64,000 bases of DNA from Neocallimastix lanati (nom. inval.) (Eukaryota > Neocallimastigomycota > Neocallimastigomycetes > Neocallimastigales > Neocallimastigaceae), in NCBI GenBank assembly GCA_016946835.1, contig JACVTC010000009.1, positions 2,027,501-2,091,500 of the forward strand, read 5' to 3'. Positions 91 to 58,511 of the stretch are shown in pieces. Below the pieces are notes generated by a model. The model made no database searches. It saw nothing but the letters and a program-made list of their open reading frames with translations, and had not been told where the DNA came from. Positions within the stretch are counted from its first letter, which is position 1; each line of letters begins with the position of its first letter. Made by a program: the position numbers and the translations under genes.

Positions 91-3000
91 CATCACTATA
101 TTCTTGGAATGGATTAGTATTAATAGCTGGTTGATTTGATAATGTTTCTCTATATGGAACAATTGGATCTGAGGAATGAATACCAATTTTGGCATATTTT
201 TCTTTTAAATCCTTTAAGCATCTCTGTTAAAAATCAATTTATTTAAAATATAACATAAATATCAAAAATTTAATATAAATGCAATAATTACTAAAATAAA
301 ATAAAATAAAATAAAATAAAATAAATAAATATATAAATGAATAAATAAATGAATAAATAAATTATAACCTCTAAATGCAATTCACCAGCAGTAACAATAA
401 CATGCTCACCAGTTTCTTGAATTAAAACTTCAACACATGAATCAGCTTGATTGAGAAGTTTTAAACCTTCAACTAATTTTGGCATATCACCTATTAAGAA
501 TAAAATTGTTTATTACCATTAATTAATGTTATACTTAGTAATATATACAATTAAATATATATATATATATATATATTATTATTATATTTTACTTGGATCA
601 TATGGTTCAACAGCAACTCTAACAATTGGTGGTGCTTTCATATCAACATTAATTAAACTTGGACATTCAGTAAGAGTTGAGATAGTTGCACTCTTTAAAA
701 CAGCTTCATCCAAACCTCCAATACCAAATACATTTCCAGCCGGTACTGAAGTAAGAGCTTCTAATTCTTTTCCCATAATTAGATATAAGTTTTTAACAGT
801 AACTTGAGTACAGAACTTAGTTGGATCCATTGGATCATATTTTGGGCCCATAACATAAACAGTTTGACCCTCATGAATTGTACCGGAAAAGATTCTAGCA
901 AAACCAACTAATATATTATCTTTTTTCTTTTCTTCTTCTTTATTATCTTCGGTTTTTTCCACAGGAGTTGTTGCTTGAACTTCATTTAAAGATAATGGGG
1001 CTTCGATTTGCCCTTCTAATTCCAATTTCCTTTGTTCTAATAATCTTCTTCTATTTTCTCTCATTTCTTCAGCAGTTAATTGGATTCTACGATTTGAAGG
1101 TAAATCTTCAGCATTAACATCAACCATCTTTGAAACAATAATAACAACAGGGGCATTTTCACTTGCATCACATTCATATAAAGCTTTTTCAAGTTTTTTT
1201 TGATTTTCTGTTAAATCTGGATCTGAATTATTATTAATATTTTGTGGATATAAAAGTTTTGGTAAACGAATTTTTTGAGCTTCTAATGGTGATGGAAGTT
1301 GTTCAACGATACTATGTATACATAACAGTTAAGGATTAATATAAATATAGTTAAATAATTTTATAAAAGCAATTACAATAAATTACTTGTATTTGTAATT
1401 ATTACTAATATATTATATTATATTATATTATATTATATATTATATTTAAATTATTTTAACTATTATTTAAAAGGATATAAAGTACTGTTTGAGCTAATGG
1501 TAACCATGTACTGCATATAGTTGATTGAATAGCTCTTGTATCTTTTGATTTAAGGTCTCTCGGTAAAATTTTTAAATTTAATGATTTAACAATTTTATCT
1601 ACTTTTTCTTTATCACTATTTGAAAGAAATTAACATATATTTAAAATTATAATTCATAATTATATAATTAATATGACTAAATAATCATTTTAATAATAAT
1701 AATATATATATATTACTTGTTTTCAACAGCTTCAAATATGGTCCAAATATTATCTAATATAAATTGAACAAACATTGGTTTTAAATTTCTTCCTTTTAAG
1801 TGCTTATATCCAATAACTTTTTTAGTTTTTGGATCTAAATAGTAGTCACCCCATAAAACCTTTTTAAGAAGATTTTCTTTGATTCCAAGTTTCTTGGCAT
1901 AAATTTTAGCAAATGATTCTATCCTATATTATAAATATTAATAATGATAATTATAATAATAATAATAATAATAATAATATTTTAATATTAATAATATTAA
2001 TAATATATTAAAGTTTTAAAATTTCATTTATATAAAAATTCTTAAACATAAAACATTATTTAAATTTTTTATATACCTAAAAGCCCAACCATCAATAGCA
2101 CTGGCAAAAATAACATTTCCTTTTTCTGGTGAAAAGAAAATTTCTTTTTCCTTTTCTTCATCCCACTCATCATCTCCGTCATCTTCACCTTTTTTATTCT
2201 ATAAAATACCAAAATATTTAATTTCCCAATATCTAATATAATATTAATTTATCTACTATTAATATATAGTATATGAACCTCTCTCTTTAAATTATCTTCT
2301 TCCATTACACCACCAGCAAAAAAAGAACCCATAATTGCATTAATTTGTTCAAGAATATTTCTTATATGAATATATGCTTCTGTAGCTGTTAATTTTAGTT
2401 CGGTAATTAATCTATCAATTTTATTAAACACAATGATACAACGAATATTTTCATCCCATGCTTGTCGAAGAACAGTATGTGTCTTATACATTTCGAAAAA
2501 AAATATAAACATATAAATAAAATATTATGAAACAAATATAAAAAAAAAAAAAAAAAAACATGTTTGATTTTTTATGAAATATTTACCTGAGTACAAATAC
2601 CTTCAACAACATCAACTAAAACTAATGCACCATCACACAATCTTGACGCAATGGATACTTCACTTGAAAAATCGATATGTCCTGGGGAATCAATTAAATT
2701 AATCAAATAATTCTCCTTTTTCATTTCAACTATAAAAATAAAAAAAATAAAAATTATTTTGTATTGAAATAATAATTAAAAATAAAACAAAATTTTTTAA
2801 TAATATATGCTAATATATAATTTTTAATAAGATTAATATTTGAAATCTACTTTGCTTTGTTTCACTGTTAAGATAATTTGTTAAAACTTGGAAAGATAAA
2901 GAAATACCAGAAGATTCCATTGTAATTCCTCTTTCTTGTTCATCTTCTCTACTATCTAAGTATCTAACTTTACCAGCCAATCTTTCTGAAATAATTCCAT

Positions 3001-3451
3001 TTGAGGCTAATAAACTATCTGAAAGAGTAGTTTTTCCTTTATTATGTTTTAATATTTAATAATTTATAATTATAATAATTTGTAATATATATATATATAA
3101 AGAAATTAACATAAAATTCAATTTCAATTGAATAATAAAACTATAAAAATACAATTTATAGTTTTATTTATACAATTCAAGCAGAACACTAAATTATTAA
3201 TTATATTTATTATTTTGTTATCTAAGATACTTTGTTTAATTAAATTTAATTTTATCATTAATTGAAAATAAAATTTGATTTTAAATTTTTTATATTAACA
3301 TTATAATAAATGGATAATAAATGGATTATTAATGAATGATATTTTCTTTGTTTAATTTATATGTACCATGATCCACATGAGCTAAAATGCATATATTTCT
3401 AATATTTTTAATATTCTTTTGAAGGGCTTGTATTTTATGCACTGTAGACAT
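91..3451 (-). CDS. EFL1: EFL1/Ria1, ribosome assembly GTPase (3' part outside window)
   Basis: Elongation factor-like GTPase 1, a cytosolic EF-2 paralogue that, with SBDS, releases Tif6/eIF6 from late pre-60S subunits. The start [13 protein letters not shown] at 3451 is followed by G1 AHVDHGKT, G2-region [12 protein letters not shown]3 DSPGHIDF, G4 FNKIDR and G5-like SAIDGW. An acidic insert ([16 protein letters not shown]) and a Lys/Glu-rich insert before VGFARIFSG are typical of EFL1 and absent from EF-2. The domain II part [12 protein letters not shown] and the domain III-like VTAGELHLE follow. Ten exons are seen: 3367-3451, 2851-3036, 2587-2729, 2279-2482, 2077-2198, 1923-1717, 1615-1479, 1315-593, 490-369 and 223-91. 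A last visible donor at 85-90 shows that the gene continues left of the window, so domain IV/V is missing only because of the window edge. All introns are GT-AG except the 1316-1478 one, which fits U12 AT-AC rules. Confidence 0.95.
1316..1478 (-). other. Candidate U12-type AT-AC intron in EFL1
   Basis: On the minus strand the exon ends ACA GTA CTT T. The intron begins ATATCCTTTT at 1478, the classical U12 donor. A branch-site match TCCTTAAC lies at 1335-1328, and the intron ends TATGTATAC at 1316. Joining gives TAT AGT ATC GTT GAA, so the protein reads [17 protein letters not shown] as expected for EFL1. The only nearby GT donor (GTACTT) joined to the AG|TATCG acceptor gives TAT CGT TGA, a stop. 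Branch A to intron end is 13 nt. Length is 163 nt. Confidence 0.85.
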
Positions 3452-4111: not shown

Positions 4112-5358
4112 ATGGTAAAGAAAAATAGAGGAATCACTTTAATTCAAAATTTACCTCAATTACAAAATCTCATTAAAAGAGATCCTTTATCATATAAAGA
4201 TGAATTTTTTAGACAATGGAGACACTATGAATCACAATTATCAATTTTTCAATTAAAACCAGAAAGTGAAAGTGAAGAATTCGGTGAATTAATTACATTT
4301 TTAAGTCATGTTTCAAGTTGCTATCCAAAAGAAACCTCTGAATTTCCAAAACAACTTATTGACATTCTTTCCCAACATTATATGATCTTATCTCCAAATT
4401 TAAGAAAAACCATGGTTCAAGCTTTAATTTTATTAAAAAATAAGGATGTCGTTTCTACAGCAAAGTAAATATAATTTATATTAATAGTTAAAAATTTTAT
4501 ATATAATTATTATAACATTATAATTTGGTAATATTGTTTAATTATTAAATGACATAAACATAAACTATATATTCATTGCTTATAGCTTATTATCGTTATT
4601 TTTCACTTTATTCCGCTGTAAAGACAAACTTTTACGTACTTTATTACATACATACATTGTTACTGATATTAAAAATTCAAATGCAAAGCATAAAAATAAT
4701 AAATTAAATAAAACTCTTCAAAATTTCATGTTCAAAATGTTAAATGATTCCGATGATGTAATTTAATTATTAAATACTAAAAAGATTAATTAAATAAAAT
4801 CAATAAAATATTATAAATTTAATAGAAGAAATAATTAAAACATAAACTTTTAAATTAATATAAATAGATTGCAGCAAGAGAATCTTTGAAAGTCATGATT
4901 GATTTATATAAAAAAAATATATGGTAAAATAAAATTATTTTGAATATAATTATTTTTGTATAATTAATACAAAGTATATTAAAAATTAACATTATGTCAT
5001 TTAATATTAAAGGAATGATGAAAAAACTGTAAATATTATTACTCAAGCCTGTTTATCTAAAACGCAAAAGATTGCTGCTACAGCTATAGCTTTTTTCTTA
5101 GGTTTAAATAATAAAGAGGAAGAGGAAGAAGACGAAGATGTAATAATAAATTAATAATATTAATATTTTTTTATTGAAATTATGTATTTGTTAATATATA
5201 ATAATTTAATAATTTAATAATTTAATTATAGGATATTGATATTGGTTATATGAAAAGAACAATGAAAATAACTAAAAAAACAAAGTCCAAACAAGCACAA
5301 ATGGAAAGAGCGTTAACTACATTAAAAAAGGTTATTATTATTATATATTATTATTATA

Positions 5359-5441
<83 letters not shown>

Positions 5442-5463
5442 TAAACCTTTAAAATAATTAAAA

Positions 5464-5502
<39 letters not shown>

Positions 5503-7640
5503 AAATTATTTGATTATATTTTATGTTTAATTTAATTAAAATAGAAAGAAAGACAAAGAAATAAAGCTGAAGTATTTAATTTTTCTGCTTTACATTTAAT
5601 TAATGATCCACAAGGTAAATATAAATATAATTTTTATTTTTGTTACAAAACATTTCTATTAATAAATTTATTAAACGTAATAAGGATTCACTGAAAAATT
5701 ATTCTCAAGATTAAAGCAAGTTACTTCGACATCAGAGTTTTCATTTGAAGTCAGAATTCAAATGATTAATCTCATTTCTCGTTTGATTGGTGTTCATAAG
5801 CTTATATTATTGAATTTCTATACATTTATCATAAAATATTTAGTACCACATCAACGTGATGTTACCCAAATTTTAGCATATACTGCTCAAAGTATACATG
5901 ATTTGATTCCCCCAGATTCAATTGAACCTATCGTTGAAGCTATATCAAATAATTTCTTATGGACAAATTGTGCATCTGAAGCTATTATTGTTGGGTAAAT
6001 ATTAAAAATTTAATGATTTCAGTATTAAAAATATAAGCTGTATTATTAATATTAATAAAATTTATTACATTTTTAATAAAATATAAAACATGAATAATAA
6101 AATGATGTAAATATTAATAAATATAAATAATGATAATACAATTTTCAAATAACAGTTTGAATAGTTTAAGAGAAATCTGTACTCGTGCACCATTAGCAAT
6201 GAATGAAAGATTATTACAAAGTTTAGTAGCGGATTTTAAAATTCATCAAGATAGTGGTGTTACAGCAGCTGCAAAATCATTGGTTAGTCTTTATCGTGAA
6301 ATTAACCCAGAAATGCTAAAAAAGAAAGACAGAGTAAATATTAATTATTTTTCATTATAAAACTATTTTTAATTATTTTATTAGTAATTATATGACATAA
6401 CCATAATTATAATATTATTCTTTCATTATCATAAAATTTAAAATATAAAGGGTAAAATTGCAACAATGAATCTTAATAATATTAAAGCCCCGCAATATGG
6501 TGAAGTTAAAGTTAATGATACAGTTGAAGGCATGGATGTAAGTTTATTTAAAAATAATGTTAAAAAAAACGAAAAAAAAGTGTTGATATTTATTATGATA
6601 TATTATAAATAGTTATTAATGAAATATCAAAGGAAAAAGGAAGAAAAAGAAAATAATGAAGATGAAGATCCTGGAGAAGGATGGGAAGGATGGGAAGTAG
6701 ATAGTGAAGCTGAAATAATTAGCAATGAGGAAAATGAAGAAAATGAAGAAAATGAAGAAACCAAAGCAGAAAAAGAAAGAATTAAACTTGAAGAAAAGAA
6801 AAAAGCCAACGAAGAATTAACTTCAAGAGTAATAATTTTACAAATTAAAATAAACATTTAATAGTTTTAATCTATATATTAAAATATTTAATAACATTTC
6901 AAATTATAAATATTACTGTAATTAGATTTTAACAGATGAAGATTTTGCTAAATTAAAGAGACTTCGTCATCATGAAGAAATAAACAAAATGACTGGAAAT
7001 AAGGATGAAGTGTACTTCTCTGATTCTTCAGAAGAAGAAGACGAAGAAGAAAATAAAGAATATTTAGATGCTGATGATCTTACAGTACATATTAAAAGAA
7101 AGAGATCTGATTATGAAGAACGTATAGAAAGTATTAAGGTAAGAGGCATTTATATATATATTTATAAATAACATAATCGTTATATAAATATATATAATAA
7201 AATAATAATAAACATATTTATATTATATAATAAAATAGCGTGGTCGTGAAGGTCGTCTTAAATTCGGTTCAAGAAAAGGAAAAGAAAGAACTAGTGTTAC
7301 AAATGCAGTAAATATTTTGATAGACTTAATATATTTAATAATATTTTTTTAATAGTATTATTTAAAAATTATTTTTATAATTGTCATATTTTTAATAGGA
7401 AAAGGCAAAGAAAAATAAGGCATTTATGATGGTTGTTCATAAAAGAAGTGTTCAAAATAAAGCTAAAAAATCTTTAAGAGAAAAACAGGTAACTTAAAAA
7501 TTAAATATATATTATACATTTTAATTTATAATTATTCTTATTTTTTTTTTTTTTTTTACTTTTGTTTTATTTTTATTTTAAAAAAAAAATAGAAAATATT
7601 AAGAGCCCATATAAAAAAGCAAAAAATGAAGTTAAAATAA
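4112..7640 (+). CDS. SDA1: SDA1 homologue, 60S ribosome biogenesis and export
   Basis: Nucleolar/nuclear SDA1 family protein (SDAD1 in animals), needed for pre-60S maturation and export. The start ATG at 4112 gives [20 protein letters not shown] followed by [13 protein letters not shown], the family N-terminus. The helical region continues through [14 protein letters not shown] and the conserved [17 protein letters not shown], then [21 protein letters not shown]. Next come the acidic segment [28 protein letters not shown] and the basic tail [18 protein letters not shown] and [13 protein letters not shown], ending KKQKMKLK at 7640. Fourteen exons join cleanly with GTAAAT-like donors and short AT introns; one intron (about 5330-5543) holds a TTA microsatellite and an A-run. 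Length is close to the usual family size. No U12-like introns were seen here. Confidence 0.95.
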
Positions 7641-7882
7641 TTATAATCCGATAAATACAACTCTTTTTTTTTTTTTTTTTACATTTAGAAATAATAAATT
7701 AGAAAATAATTATTTAAAATGTAAATTTAAAATTTGATTCAAATGTTATTAATATATTATAGAGATTTATCACTGTCGTTATTATATCTTATTATTTCAG
7801 TTTTTTTTTTTTTTTATTATTATATTATTTATAAAAAGAATTTTATTTATTTTAATTTATTAATATTATACATATCTTTTAA

Positions 7883-7914
<32 letters not shown>

Positions 7915-8029
7915 TTTTTATTATTATTATTATTTTATTATTATTTTAATAAATAACAATTAAAATTATAAAATAATATTTCTTGTTTTCTTTCTTTTTT
8001 TTTTTTTTATTATAATTATAATTATTATA

Positions 8030-8062
<33 letters not shown>

Positions 8063-8503
8063 ACAGATAATTACAAATAAAGATTGTTTTTAAATTAAAA
8101 AGAAATGTATAAATGAATAACTTGTATAAATGTATACAATATATATTTTTATTTATAAATTATTAAACTTAAACAATAACATAATTTTATTTATTTTGTG
8201 GAGTTCTATATTTTTTTTCAATTTTAATTTCTTTATTTTTATTATATTTGGTATTTATAAATTTTATTAAATATGTATATTTAGTATAGTTTTGTTATTA
8301 AATATATGTAAATATATAAATTAATATTTAGTATAGTTTTTATTATTTTTTTTTTTTTGTTTTTTTTGTTTGTTTGTTTGTTTGTTTGTTTTCGTTTTCG
8401 TTTTTGTTTTTGTTTTTGGTTTATTTGTTTTGTTTTGTTTTGTTTTATTATATTTTATTCTATTTTATTTTATTTTATTTTAATAATTATTTGTGGTTAA
8501 TAT

Positions 8504-8541
<38 letters not shown>

Positions 8542-8830
8542 TTTTAGTTTTATTTTTTTATTTCTTGGTCTGTTTTGTATTCTTTTAATTTAATATTTAT
8601 AACACAAGTTTAAAAATAAATTTATTCTGCTTTATTTTATTTTCACTTTCATTTTCATTTTTATAATCATTATTCACGGGTTAAAACCTTGAATAATTTT
8701 ATTAATATTATTATTATAAATTTATTTTTTAATATTATTTTTATTTTATTTTTTTTTTTTTTTTTTTATTTTATTTTATTTTATTTTATTTTATTTTATT
8801 TTATTTTATTTTATTTTATTTTATTTTATT
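7641..8830. other. Gene-free convergent intergenic region
   Basis: 3' flanks of SDA1 (+) and the kinase gene (-). It contains long T runs, short TTA and TTTG runs and an ATTTT array at the right end. No open frame with protein-like composition was seen on either strand. Confidence 0.6.

Positions 8831-8844
<14 letters not shown>
8740..8844. repeat. (TTTTA)n microsatellite at the kinase stop codon
   Basis: About 15 copies of the pentamer TTTTA run from about 8767 to 8840. The kinase stop codon (8831-8833) lies inside the last units, so the annotated 3' UTR begins as an AAAAT array on the minus strand. The repeat may have formed the present C-terminus (..LIEFIK). Confidence 0.8.
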
Positions 8845-16392
<7,548 letters not shown>

Positions 16393-16481
16393 GTTTCTAA
16401 TTTTCTAATGTTCTATCTTAATTACTTGTATTATCATTTAATATATTTTCAAAAATATTATGTTATTAATTTTATTTTATA

Positions 16482-16525
<44 letters not shown>

Positions 16526-17316
16526 CCTTTAATAAAAATAATTATATATATCATATATTATAAATAAAATATTATAGAAAACTTATAATAACATTAATAT
16601 TAATTATTAATTTGCTTTTTTATATGACATCAATATTCATCATTATATATTTTATAATTTATTTTTAAATTATTTAAAGTTTATAAATTTTAAATCATTT
16701 TGTTTTTATTTTAAAAATATATTATAAATAAAAAAAAAAAACAAGTATATATATTATATAAAACTATAAAAAAAAATAAAAAATTAAAAAAAAAATAAAA
16801 TAAATTAAATATTAAAAAAAAATTTTTTTTTTTCTGAACTTTAATAATATATTTTATGGTTTATATTAAAAAAGTATATTTGTATTTTTTTTATTGTAGT
16901 ACGAAACTTCTACATATAAAAATATATAACAAGAATTTCACCATTAAATGATAAAAACGAAATAATAAAGTTTTCATTCTACATTTTTATTGATAAATGA
17001 TATTTTTTAGTCTTTATTTATAAAATTATTTTAATAGAAAAAAACATACATTTATATATTTACTTTAATATTTTCTTGAATTTTTTTTTTATTTTTTTTT
17101 TATTTCACTCTTATCTTTTCCTTTCATTTTCTTTCATTTTGATTTTACATTTTTTTCTTTATTATTTTTTTGTTTATTTTACTTAAATTCGTATATTTTA
17201 TTTAAAATGATATAAATAGATTTTTTTTTATTCTATTTTAATTTCCTTGATAGTTATTAATCTTATTTTGAATAATTAAATTAATCTAATTTCATCAGTT
17301 TTTACTTAAAGTTCAA
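16393..17316. other. Intergenic region between giant ASH gene 3' end and kinase 5' end
   Basis: AT-only sequence with A and T runs (for example A run about 16483-16522). It must hold the giant gene's polyadenylation site and the kinase promoter. No supported gene. Confidence 0.6.
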
Positions 17317-35675
<18,359 letters not shown>

Positions 35676-36672: not shown

Positions 36673-39339
36673 TTAATGTCTTCTTCTTTTCTCAGAACTT
36701 CTTTCATCATCACCTTCATGATTTCTCTTATTCTTTAAGAATTTTTCCAATTCATATGGATCTTCTTCTTTTTCAAATTGAACAGGGCCTGATCTATCAG
36801 AATTAACATCTGCTCCTTTAAAGCCTCTACTACCTTCACCTATTTATTCATATATAAAATATATATTAATATTTTAATTAAATCTTATAATACATCTTAT
36901 TATTTTAATATATAACTATTATTTAATTTATATATATATTTACCTCCAATTTTATTGCTAACTATTTTTTCTATTGCTTCGGTATCATAGTTTTCATCTG
37001 ACACTGTTTTCTTTGGTCTATATATAGTATTCGAACTACGTTCCGCAAATAGTGGTTTATCATATATATTATAACTGTCTTCACTTCCAAAACCAGATGA
37101 TAAACCTTCTGATCTATTAAATAAACGTTGATCATACATCGATTCTCTTGATGCAGTTGGTTGGGCTAAACCTAATGCAATCTTTTCTGATATATCACGA
37201 TCACCACTACATAATTATAAATAATTTATTGTTCGTAAATTATTTACCAATATTTACAATTAGTAAATATATAATAATAATAATAATAATAATATAATTA
37301 AAATTTTAAATATTTATATTATTTATTTATATATAAGAATTACATACAGCTTACGCATAACTTTAGACTTGGTTTCTTGTCCCATATGAGATAAACGCAT
37401 TTCTCTTTCACGTTGTTTCTGTCTTTCACGTCTTAAATTATCACGTTCTTTAGCCTTTCTTTCACTTTCACTTTCGTTTCTATGTCTTGATGACCTATGT
37501 TCTCTATGTGAATGTTCAGATCTTGATGATTCTGATCTTGTATCAGATCCTGATTCTGATTCTGACTCTGATTCATTTCTTTCCTTTCTTTCATTATATT
37601 CGCTAGAAGCATTGTTTATTAAGCCTATTATATTAATGTATTTGAGTATTAATTATGATTTTATTCAATTAAATTATTAACAAAATAAATTTAGAATAAA
37701 ATTAATAAACTTAATGTAAATATTACAAATAAACTTAAAAAAAAAAAAATCATTCATAATAATAAAATAATTATATACAATATTATATCATAATTATAAT
37801 TATAATTATAATATTATATAAACTAATTTAATTACAATATTAATTTAATTAAAAATTTTATTATATTTACCTGCTCTTTCTTCACGAGCACGTTGAGCAA
37901 GCATACGTAATCTTTCTTCTTTTTCTTTCTTTTCTTTAGCAGCTAATTTTGCTTGCATGTTTGCTCTTAATCTTACTTCCTCACGGGCATGACGATCAGC
38001 AATTGAAAGGGCTTCTGAAAAACTTGCAAATTTAGGATTAATTTGAATATCTTGAATACCACGACCATCTGCCGCTAAACGTTTATCTAATGGAATAGTA
38101 TAACCTTTAGCATTTTTCCAATTACTAATACAAGGTGGAATAACCCAATTACTTTGTTCCTCAGCAGATACTTTTCTTGGTGGTGAATGTAATACTGGAG
38201 CTGGTGGGGATGGCGGTCCTCTTGGCATTTTCTTATGTTTAAACTTTGGTGGTTCCATTGGATCTACTGGTGCTTCAACCATTCTAATAATACGTGAACC
38301 AACTGTTGATTTTGAAGCTGGGGTATATTTAACAAATGATGGTCCAGCTTTTTTATCTTTACTTGTACCGCCTTGTACTGATTTTGAACGACCTTCTAAA
38401 ATTGCCTGTAAAGCTGCTTGTGTCTTCTCCGTTGTCTTTTTAATTTCATCCTCCGTTGGTCTAGCATTAAAATCTCTTTTCTCCATTGGTACAATATCTT
38501 TCAATTGTGAATGAATAATTCTATTATTACTATGACCTTGCTTTAAAATTGCATCATATCTAATTTTACCATCTCCATCAACTTGTAATGGTAAAGTTTT
38601 AGTTGACGATGTTTTAATACTCTTTTTTCTACCCATATCTAATGGGTATTGAACTACATGAATTTCTGGAAATGCACCACCATTTCCAAAATCCTATTCA
38701 TTATTTCCATTTTAATTCACATTTTTATTAATTATAATTTATTTTTATAAAAAATAATAATATCAAATTAAAATTAATTAAATATTTTAAAAATAGATTT
38801 AAAAAACAATTTACTATTACTATTACAAAAAAAACTAATAAAATAATATTGATATATAAATTTATTTCAATCAATCTTTTTTTTTAAAAAAATTTAAATA
38901 TAATTTTATATTTTTTTATTTTTAATTTATAGAATATAATAATAAAATCCAATGAATTTAATAAAATATACCTCCACTGTTCTTGGAATAAAACCCTTTC
39001 TATGTCTATATGGTGGTGGTCCAACAATATCATCTGAAATTAATGGTGTACGATCGAATATTGAATCATTTTTTAAAGTTTGATTTCTTGGTTTTGGTAA
39101 AAAACTATTTTTTATATGATAATAATTTATATGGAAATTGCATAATAAAACATTATATAAAACATTATACATTAAAATTATATTATAATAATATTGTTTG
39201 TTTATTTATATAAATGTATATATTAAGATTATATTAATAATTAGATTAATCATAAAAATATATGATTTTTTTTATATTTATATTAATTTTTCTTCCTTTT
39301 CTTCTTTAATTTTTATTATTATTACCTTGCTAAACTCAT
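36673..39339 (-). CDS. SNW1: SNW1/Prp45/SKIP splicing and transcription co-factor
   Basis: Nuclear SNW-domain protein of the activated spliceosome. The 14-nt first exon (39326-39339, MSLA) joins to SFLPKPRNQT, the conserved N-terminus. Then come VGPPPYRHRKGFIPRTVE, DFGNGGAFPEIHVVQYPLDM, HSQLKDIVPMEKRDF, GSRIIRMVEAPVDPMEPPKF and the signature CISNWKNAKGYTIPLDKRLA with ADGRGIQDIQINPKFA. A coiled charged segment (EEVRLRANMQAKLAAKEKK), an RS/ES-rich region (ESESESESGSDTRSESS) and RDISEKIALGLA follow, ending SEKRRRH at 36673. Six exons: 39326-39339, 38972-39104, 37871-38693, 37348-37624, about 36955-37208 and 36673-about 36839. All are GT-AG. Size and order match fungal SNW proteins. Confidence 0.97.
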
Positions 39340-41204: not shown

Positions 41205-42042
41205 TTATATTATTATTGATTATTGATTATTGATTATTGATTATTGATTATTGATTATTGATTATTGATTATTATTTATTATTTATATTTATTATTTATT
41301 ATTTATATTTATTATTTATTATTTATTATTAATAATATTAATATATATTCTTTATTATTTATTATTATTATTTATTATTTATTATTTATTATTTATTATT
41401 TATTATTTATTATTTATTATTTATTATTTATTATTTATTGTATATTATTTATTATTTATTGTATATTATTTATTATTTATTATTTATTATTTATTATTTA
41501 TTATTTATTATTTATTATTTATTATTTATTATTTATTATTTATTATTTATTATTTATTATTTATTATTTATTATTTATTATTTATTATTTATTGTATATT
41601 ATTTATTATTTATTATTTATTATTTATTATTTATTATTTATTATATATTATTTATTATTTATTATTTATTATTTATTATTTATTATTTATTATTTATTAT
41701 TTATTATTTATTATTTATTGTATATTATTTATTATTTATTATTTATTATTTATTATTTATTATTTATTATTTATTATTTATTATTTATTATTTATTGTAT
41801 ATTATTTATTATTTATTATTTATTATTTATTATTTATTATTTATTATTTATTATTTATTATTTATTATTTATTATTTATTATTTATTATTTATTATTTAT
41901 TATTTATTATTTATTATTTATTATTTATTATTTATTATTTATTATTTATTATTTATTGTATATTATTTATTATTTATTATTTATTATTTATTATTTATTA
42001 TTTATTATTTATTATTTATTATTTATTATTTATTATTTATTT
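41205..42042. repeat. Heptamer satellite (TTATTGA)n then (TTATTTA)n
   Basis: The array starts with about eight TTATTGA heptamers (41214-41273) and passes into more than 90 TTATTTA heptamers with scattered TTATTGT/ATA variants. The 7-base period gives long IIYYLLF-type open frames that are not genes. The inverse of the same heptamer occurs at 56277-56395. Confidence 0.95.
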
Positions 42043-42329
42043 GAAAAATGAGCAATTATATAGCAGAAAAAAAAATTTGGGAATAATTTATAATAAAATA
42101 ATTTTAAAATGTATTAAAAAATTAAAATAAATGTAAAATAAATTTAATTATTATATTTATAAAAATCTTTAATTCTATCTTATAATCTAATTAGAATATT
42201 AAATATTGGTGAAATAAATAGAATATGATAATCTATCAAAATATAATAATATTGAAGATGTCAAAACTGTTATTTTATCATATTTGAAGCTTGAAGATTT
42301 TTTTTTAAAATGTCAATATAGAAGCTAAA

Positions 42330-57146: not shown

Positions 57147-58511
57147 ATGGGTAAGGAAAAGACTCACGTTAACGTTGTCGTTATTGGTCACGTCGATTCT
57201 GGTAAGTCTACCACTACCGGTCACTTAATTTACAAGTGCGGTGGTATCGATAAGCGTACCATTGAAAAGTTCGAAAAGGAATCTGCTGATCTCGGTAAGG
57301 GTTCCTTCAAGTACGCCTGGGTTCTTGATAAACTTAAGGCTGAACGTGAAAGAGGTATTACCATTGATATTGCTCTCTGGAAGTTCGAAACTCCAAAGTA
57401 CTACGTTACTGTTATTGATGCCCCAGGTCACCGTGACTTCATCAAGAACATGATTACTGGTACTTCTCAAGCTGATTGTGCTATTCTTATTATTGCTGCC
57501 GGTACTGGTGAATTCGAAGCTGGTATTTCTAAGGATGGTCAAACTCGTGAACACGCTCTTCTTGCTTACACTCTTGGTGTCAAACAACTTATTGTTGCTG
57601 TCAACAAGATGGATACCGCTAAGTGGTCCGAAGCTCGTTTCAAGGAAATTGTTAAGGAAGTTTCCAACTTCATTAAGAAGACTGGTTACAACCCAAAGAC
57701 TGTTCCATTCGTCCCAATTTCTGGATGGCACGGTGATAACATGATTGAAGCCACCACTAACATGCCATGGTACAAGGGTTGGACTAAGGAAACCAAGTCT
57801 GGTTCCTACACTGGTAAGACTCTTTTAGAAGCTATTGATTCTATTGAACCACCAAGTCGTCCAATTGATAAGCCACTTCGTCTTCCACTTCAAGATGTCT
57901 ACAAGATCGGTGGTATTGGTACTGTCCCAGTCGGTCGTGTCGAAACTGGTGTCATCAAGCCAGGTATGGTTGTTACTTTCGCTCCAACTGGTGTTACTAC
58001 TGAAGTTAAGTCTGTTGAAATGCACCACGAAGCTTTAGCTGAAGGTGTTCCAGGTGATAATGTCGGTTTCAACGTTAAGAACGTTTCTGTTAAGGAAATT
58101 CGTCGTGGTAATGTTTGCTCTGACTCTAAGAGAGACCCAGCCAAGGAAGCTGCTTCCTTCACTGCTCAAGTTATTGTCATCAACCACCCAGGTCAAATTG
58201 CTAACGGTTACTCTCCAGTTCTTGACTGTCACACCGCTCACATTGCCTGCCGTTTCGCCGAAATCCAAAAGAAGATGGATCGTCGTTCTGGTAAGACTCT
58301 TGAAGAAAATCCAAAGTTCATCAAATCTGGTGATGCCGCTATGGTTAAGTTAATTCCATCCAAGCCACTTTGTGTCGAAACTTTCGTCGAATACCCACCA
58401 CTTGGTCGTTTCGCCGTTCGTGATATGAGACAAACTGTTGCTGTCGGTGTTATCAAGTCTGTTGAAAAGGTCGACAAGGCTGCCTCTGGTGCTGCTGGTA
58501 AGAAGAAGTAA
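57147..58511 (+). CDS. TEF1: Translation elongation factor eEF1A
   Basis: Delivers aminoacyl-tRNA to the ribosome. It is 454 residues and intronless. G1 GHVDSGKST near residue 14, G2 region [18 protein letters not shown]3 DAPGHRDF near 91, G4 NKMD near 153, G5-like SGWHGDNM near 194. The opisthokont-type insertion [15 protein letters not shown] is present after NMPWYK. The C-terminus ends [10 protein letters not shown]. Length is normal. Coding sequence is far richer in GC than the rest of the window, with strong preference for codons such as GGT, AAG, GTC and TAC, the usual mark of very high expression. All other long frames in this interval are shadows. Confidence 0.99.

Follow-up and report, generated by a model that had tools for sequence, protein, structure and literature searches.

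The EFL1 gene

The window, by which is meant the whole 64-kb stretch of DNA analysed, begins within the gene for EFL1 (Ria1), an EF2-like GTPase that acts in maturation of the 60S ribosomal subunit. The closest database proteins of the predicted product include entries named ribosome assembly protein 1 or EFL1, and its top solved-structure match is EFTUD1 (5anb_K, E 1.5e-206), which we take to be human EFL1. Ten exons are present on the reverse strand (Table 1); directly after exon 10, where the homologue diverges, there is a GT donor (GTAAAT) at 90, and the remaining 3' part of the gene falls into 4000 bases that are all N (G000:C752 2023501-2027500). Nine EFL1 introns are complete in the window. 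Eight are GT-AG introns that carry no U12-type donor and branch motifs, and the remaining one, between exons 7 and 8, has AT-AC ends.

Other features of the window include an exon encoding the SKIP/SNW domain of a spliceosomal protein gene (37845-38693, - strand), a 454-residue EF1-alpha frame that runs without interruption (57147-58508, + strand; top solved structure 1f60_A, eEF1A), and long simple repeats in which several frames are open together (15186-16259, 13955-14527 and 41262-42051).

Table 1. Features of the EFL1 gene, its AT-AC intron and the associated loci; positions are those of the window unless another locus is named
Feature	Position	Strand	Remarks
EFL1/Ria1 gene, exons 1-10	91..3451	-	3' part lies left of the window
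EFL1 exon 1	3451-3367	-	
EFL1 exon 2	3036-2851	-	
EFL1 exon 3	2729-2587	-	
EFL1 exon 4	2482-2279	-	
EFL1 exon 5	2198-2077	-	
EFL1 exon 6	1923-1717	-	
EFL1 exon 7	1479..1615	-	ends with the first base of codon 362
AT-AC intron, very likely U12-type	1316..1478	-	163 nt, phase 1, G+C 0.10; spliced product equals P0001 across the junction
5' splice site ATATCCTTTT	1469..1478	-	read in the sequence
Branch-site motif TCCTTAAC	1328..1335	-	second A lies 13 nt before the end of the intron
Terminal AC, 3' splice site TATAC/AT	1316..1317	-	
GT-AG alternative, open but faulty	1312..1504	-	same skip in gene model P0004
EFL1 exon 8	593..1315	-	begins inside codon 362 (Y), then SIVEQLPSP
EFL1 exon 9	490-369	-	
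EFL1 exon 10	223-91	-	end set by eye and by the point of P0001 divergence
U6atac, copy 1	L002:1501-1649	-	
U6atac, copy 2	L003:1501-1646	+	
U11	L005:1501-1634	+	short 5' domain and altered start; stem-loop CGGAAUCGAUAUCAAGAGAUUUCG and Sm-like site kept
SNRNP48 (U11 48K protein) gene	around C279:1004975		
Glomeromycotina EFL1 models with deletions around codon 362	P0033, P0053, P0059, P0067, P0082, P0085		

Sequence marks of the AT-AC intron

The donor ATATCCTTTT (1478-1469) matches RTATCCTTT, the pattern used here for a U12-type 5' splice site (the canonical minor-intron donor motif being taken as ATATCCTTT), and near the 3' end of the intron the sequence TCCTTAAC (1335-1328) matches the branch-site pattern TCCTTRAY; U12 branch sites usually lie ~10-15 nt from the 3' end. 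Removal of the sequence between the AT-AC termini restores the EFL1 frame in phase 1. On re-reading, the coordinates, donor, branch match, terminal AC and 13-nt spacing are all as the original prediction described them, and the frame that it held to be restored does rebuild a conserved segment of 13 residues, with the exact join found in the public protein P0001.

Neither motif is by itself enriched in the A+T-rich window: RTATCCTTT occurs 5 times as against 4.09 expected from shuffles, and TCCTTRAY 8 times as against 11.38. Since the single motifs are as frequent as in shuffled sequence, the case rests on their combination and on the coding context. A composite motif, defined as RTATCCTTT, TCCTTRAY and a fitting terminal AC or AG in that order over no more than 520 nt, has a single occurrence in the 64 kb of the window, at the EFL1 intron; of 150 windows simulated with a third-order Markov model, one contains it. 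A second composite motif, i.e. a further minor intron, was not found within the window. A chance match of the intron motifs was considered and is rejected by the composite count together with the identical public protein. We are highly confident that 1316-1478, in the EFL1 gene of a Neocallimastigomycete, is truly a spliceosomal AT-AC intron of the minor (U12) type.

Public proteins and alternative splice pairs

Through the last codon that exon 10 holds in full, all 687 residues of the spliced EFL1 model agree with P0001; over the full query the identity is 687/690, the last three query residues being read-through past the next donor. P0001 is a protein of 1078 residues on a public contig of 3488 nt. 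On the genome, the 687 residues are spread over 3361 nt, and encoding the remaining 391 takes 1173 nt or more; the introns therefore cannot fit on a contig of 3488 nt, and P0001, although not so labelled, is very probably derived from a transcript. The same exon join is found in P0002 (92% identity, 3349-nt contig), P0003 (89%, 3307-nt contig) and P0006 (76%, 3448-nt contig), and the conserved block is intact in Piromyces sp. E2 (P0005).

When GT-AG, GC-AG and AT-AC pairs are tried at the junction, with donors from 1520 to 1440 and acceptors from 1450 to 1290, 12 pairs leave the frame open, 11 of them AT-AC and one GT-AG. Among the 12, only 1478-1316 yields the conserved EFL1 block at its conserved length, a length also seen in PDB structures of EFL1 (EFTUD1) and of EF2. 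According to the original prediction, GT-AG alternatives run into a stop; this is in error for a single pair, 1504-1312 (193 nt), whose product lacks 11 conserved residues and gains one Cys. This same skip is made by a public gene model, P0004, which reads STICSTCIVEQ at the junction, is near-identical to P0002 outside it, and bears the label Orpsp1_1, presumably Orpinomyces. It could thus be proposed, from an open frame and a public model that uses it, that no AT-AC intron exists and that the true intron is GT-AG 1504-1312, encoding a protein without the 11-residue block as in P0004. However, the block is kept in P0001, which is identical to the window protein, and in P0002, both of them on contigs too short to hold introns; it is kept in EFTUD1 of the PDB, and it is missing in 0 of 105 alignment rows outside the Glomeromycotina and Neocallimastigomycetes. 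A real intron at 1504-1312 is already contradicted by these observations and is extremely improbable. With the AT-AC intron as the preferred reading, such an intron is probably present in the gene of P0004 as well, and wrongly annotated there.

Placement of the lineage

An EFL1 tree was built by maximum likelihood from 31 rows (the window together with 30 picked from 120 listed homologues; midpoint root). In it the window protein and P0001-P0006, P0004 and Piromyces sp. E2 among them, form a group with 100/100 support, which adjoins the chytrids at 96/91. By this grouping the source of the window is assigned, on sequence, to the anaerobic gut fungi, Neocallimastigomycetes, in agreement with the earlier description of the gene as EFL1 of a probable early-diverging fungus. 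A dictyostelid or another amoeba, as the base composition might suggest, is rejected on the homologues and on the tree. The closest named EFL1 is P0004, at 90%, and the SNRNP48 protein described below is 88% identical to that of Neocallimastix californiae. The window also contains a 2818-residue stop-to-stop frame for a CFAP65/HYDIN-like flagellar protein (22541-30997, - strand), of which residues 700-1900 show 72% identity to Neocallimastix californiae and 68% to Piromyces finnis; a flagellar protein fits a zoospore-forming lineage.

Components of the minor spliceosome

The original prediction named U11, U12, U4atac, U6atac and SNRNP48 among the components to be sought in the same genome. Covariance searches of the genome (G000; 199,045,447 bases in 762 contigs) with Rfam models, each of which scored 39-48 out of 4700-20704 candidates, yield U12 at 56.8 bits (cut-off 53), two U6atac genes at 57.4 and 56.4 bits (cut-off 33), and U11 at 40.5 bits (cut-off 39; E 5.2e-4), the weakest of the matches above cut-off. 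U4atac, at 47.2 bits, falls below the Rfam curated cut-off of 53. The alignments span each Rfam model end to end, that of U4atac included, and for each of the four minor snRNAs 0 of 14 control genomes is positive, the control set being a loose test of specificity.

U12 keeps the branch-pairing segment GAGUAAGGA, and its duplex with the EFL1 branch site is predicted at -8.7 kcal/mol versus -7.4 for the consensus. In U4atac, CGUCCUUAUC is complementary over its full length to GAUAAGGACG in U6atac, and relative to the Rfam consensus lines the stem carries a C-G to U-A change made on both sides, which argues for a working pair. The two U6atac copies share ~1.2 kb at 96.6% and are thus a recent duplication that counts as one observation rather than two; a DNA search of the genome finds no third copy. 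U6atac has 0 matches in IMG/VR and 0 in a prokaryote genome collection, as expected for a fungal RNA.

The SNRNP48 gene encodes a zf-U11-48K CHHC zinc finger (33.9 bits), a family that also matches one of the 14 controls, Sulfolobus acidocaldarius, and its hand-joined exons match the solved U11/U12 48 kDa protein in the PDB at E 2.8e-9. Of 336 candidates, 34 are relatives at E <=0.001. Among them are Neocallimastigomycetes, many Glomeromycotina, Jimgerdemannia, a coral and Balamuthia, and none of the named relatives in this set is from Dikarya. All four snRNAs, U4atac below its cut-off, and the SNRNP48 homologue are thus present in the one genome, and they lend support to the earlier view of a U12-type AT-AC intron in a lineage that has retained the minor spliceosome.

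Minor introns elsewhere in the genome

Two genome-wide searches for a donor and branch pattern covered introns of ~60-130 nt only; the gap class of the EFL1 intron (120-150) lies outside them, so that they contain no positive control. With a gap of 35-65 and the branch pattern TTCCTTAAC, which is stricter than the EFL1 branch site, where A precedes TCCTTAAC, there is 1 match versus 1 in the reversed control, and this match lies inside an open frame of >1000 residues. With a gap of 67-97 and the pattern TCCTTAAC there are 10 rows at 9 places versus 4 in the reversed control. Eight of these 10 rows are in open frames of 116-883 residues and the other two are copies of one sequence that has T before TATCC; only L039 has both a fitting start and a fitting end, and it sits in an open frame of 871 residues. 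No canonical site in either search (~60-130 nt) was judged to be an intron.

A looser motif was run over 200 kb along the same contig, of which 180 kb are readable and 20 kb are N, and gives 8 rows. In neighbouring sequence the candidates L018 and L023 join no coding frames, judging from their flanks, and the five L015 and L016 rows have one donor mismatch each. The pattern searches, which would miss shifted motifs or other intron lengths, agree with there being few canonical minor introns in the genome without proving it.

Predicted donor pairing by altered U6atac and U11

The order of snRNA steps in minor splicing is textbook knowledge. Applied to the EFL1 intron, U11/U12 would recognise the donor and the branch site, with the GUAAGGA of U12 pairing to TCCTTAAC; U4atac/U6atac would take over from U11 at the donor; and splicing would join codon 362 (T/AT, Tyr), rebuilding the conserved 13-residue GTPase segment. 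The sequence marks, the restored frame, an identical intron-free coding sequence, and genes for the snRNAs and SNRNP48 are observed, and from these we infer that the intron is removed by the minor spliceosome.

The donor-reading RNAs of this genome depart from the consensus. Both U6atac copies have AGCCGAGAGA where the Rfam consensus has AAAGGAGAGA, that is GCCGA for AAGGA, the latter being presumably the donor-pairing part of U6atac, and the predicted start of U11 is AGAAUAGG versus AAAAAGGG in the consensus. The best predicted duplex with the donor is -3.0 kcal/mol for U6atac versus -8.4 for the Rfam consensus segment, and -2.7 kcal/mol for U11 versus -6.1. Pairing of the donor with U11 and U6atac, one of the marks by which membership of the class was judged, is therefore predicted to be weak, and this is a feature of the snRNAs of the genome, not of the EFL1 intron. 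The weak pairing lowers confidence in the standard donor-reading step.

This raises the question of whether the major (U2) spliceosome removes the AT-AC intron, the U12-like motifs being remnants. AT-AC introns spliced by the U2 spliceosome are known, and poor pairing of U6atac and U11 with the donor would fit such a scheme, as would the lack of another canonical minor intron in the two length classes searched. Removal by the U2 spliceosome nonetheless appears very unlikely, since donor and branch site are full matches to the U12 consensus while the eight other complete EFL1 introns are GT-AG and lack them, since the segment of U12 that pairs with the branch site is intact, and since the U4atac/U6atac stem has stayed fully paired through its two-sided change. 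If the intron is instead a substrate of the minor spliceosome, it may tentatively be suggested, as one possibility that we do not favour strongly, that U6atac (in both copies) and U11 retain little of their ability to read the donor by Watson-Crick pairing, whereas U12 still reads the branch site; that very few introns, that of EFL1 included, are served; and that the donor is chosen via proteins or other RNA contacts. This would be a transformed and perhaps dwindling minor spliceosome, between retention and loss.

Age of the EFL1 intron

Evidence bearing on the age of the intron comes from a MAFFT alignment of the 120 homologues that were listed out of 7933. A column counted as conserved if it had <=3% gaps among the 105 rows outside the Glomeromycotina and Neocallimastigomycetes, a definition that itself limits what those rows can show. 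At residues 338-376, at least 4 conserved columns are deleted in six of the nine rows from Glomeromycotina (Rhizophagus, Ambispora, two Paraglomus, Glomus and Funneliformis), in one of the six from Neocallimastigomycetes (P0004) and in none of the 105 others (Fisher P 3e-8, for an interval chosen after the deletions were seen and for rows that are related, not independent, where models of one project may share errors). Geosiphon and Acaulospora have altered residues in the interval, and Gigaspora is intact. Elsewhere among 833 conserved columns, the nine Glomeromycotina rows show one such deletion (Acaulospora); deletions of this kind occur in 12 of the remaining 105 rows, always outside the interval. 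As aligned, residues 360-367, which bracket codon 362, are lost in Rhizophagus and Paraglomus brasilianum. Eight of the nine Glomeromycotina rows are in the EFL1 tree, where they group at 100/99; three of the nine names were confirmed in the taxonomy as Glomeromycotina, and the rest we take to belong there.

P0004 and the six Glomeromycotina models of Table 1 are probably faulty around codon 362. The simplest reading of the deletions suggests an intron at this codon with non-GT-AG ends that gene predictors could not use. Mouse Efl1 and human EFL1 also carry a U12-type intron, according to the part of the source that was available, where it is known by gene and not by position, and the exon before it ends in CG in mouse Efl1 versus TT in the window EFL1 (PMC10853781). 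Because the Glomeromycotina models break at the same codon and the mouse and human genes hold a U12-type intron, the EFL1 intron is probably ancestral, inherited rather than new.

Relation to known minor introns

Minor introns in this lineage, whose novelty the original prediction implied, prove to have been published as a class: in the passages available, the 2023 report of Larue and Roy describes minor introns and minor snRNAs in the Neocallimastigomycetes Piromyces finnis and Neocallimastix californiae, i.e. the same intron class, the same fungal class and the same four Rfam snRNA models as used for the window genome (PMC10639083). For two further non-Dikarya fungi it gives totals of 205 and 249 minor introns, the former number being that of Rhizophagus irregularis, whose EFL1 model, as noted, breaks at the same codon; an AT-AC intron in the EFL1 gene of this species is suggested by the protein models. 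EFL1 is not named in the main text, nor do the passages available discuss what sequence U6atac or U11 has in these fungi (PMC10639083). The same passages argue that the well-aligning gene models of that study are unlikely to conceal unannotated introns (PMC10639083); the EFL1 models considered here suggest that when a minor intron is overlooked, the resulting model can still align over nearly its full length.

The EFL1 AT-AC intron is thus ordinary in kind, its class being already known in Neocallimastigomycetes. Limited searches of the openly accessible literature found no publication on a fungal EFL1 intron, on the U6atac or U11 sequence of anaerobic fungi or on Glomeromycotina EFL1. The points of interest are the canonical donor set against altered U6atac and U11, and an EFL1 position that is apparently shared and mis-annotated. 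The gene offers a Neocallimastigomycete minor intron at the level of sequence, probably backed by a transcript, and a case in which a faulty intron has probably replaced the AT-AC intron in the gene model of a relative, apparently as in several Glomeromycotina. The genome provides a system in which to test how the minor spliceosome reads a donor that U6atac and U11 match poorly. If the EFL1 position should be common to animals, this would be a very old minor intron that can be traced into the fungi.
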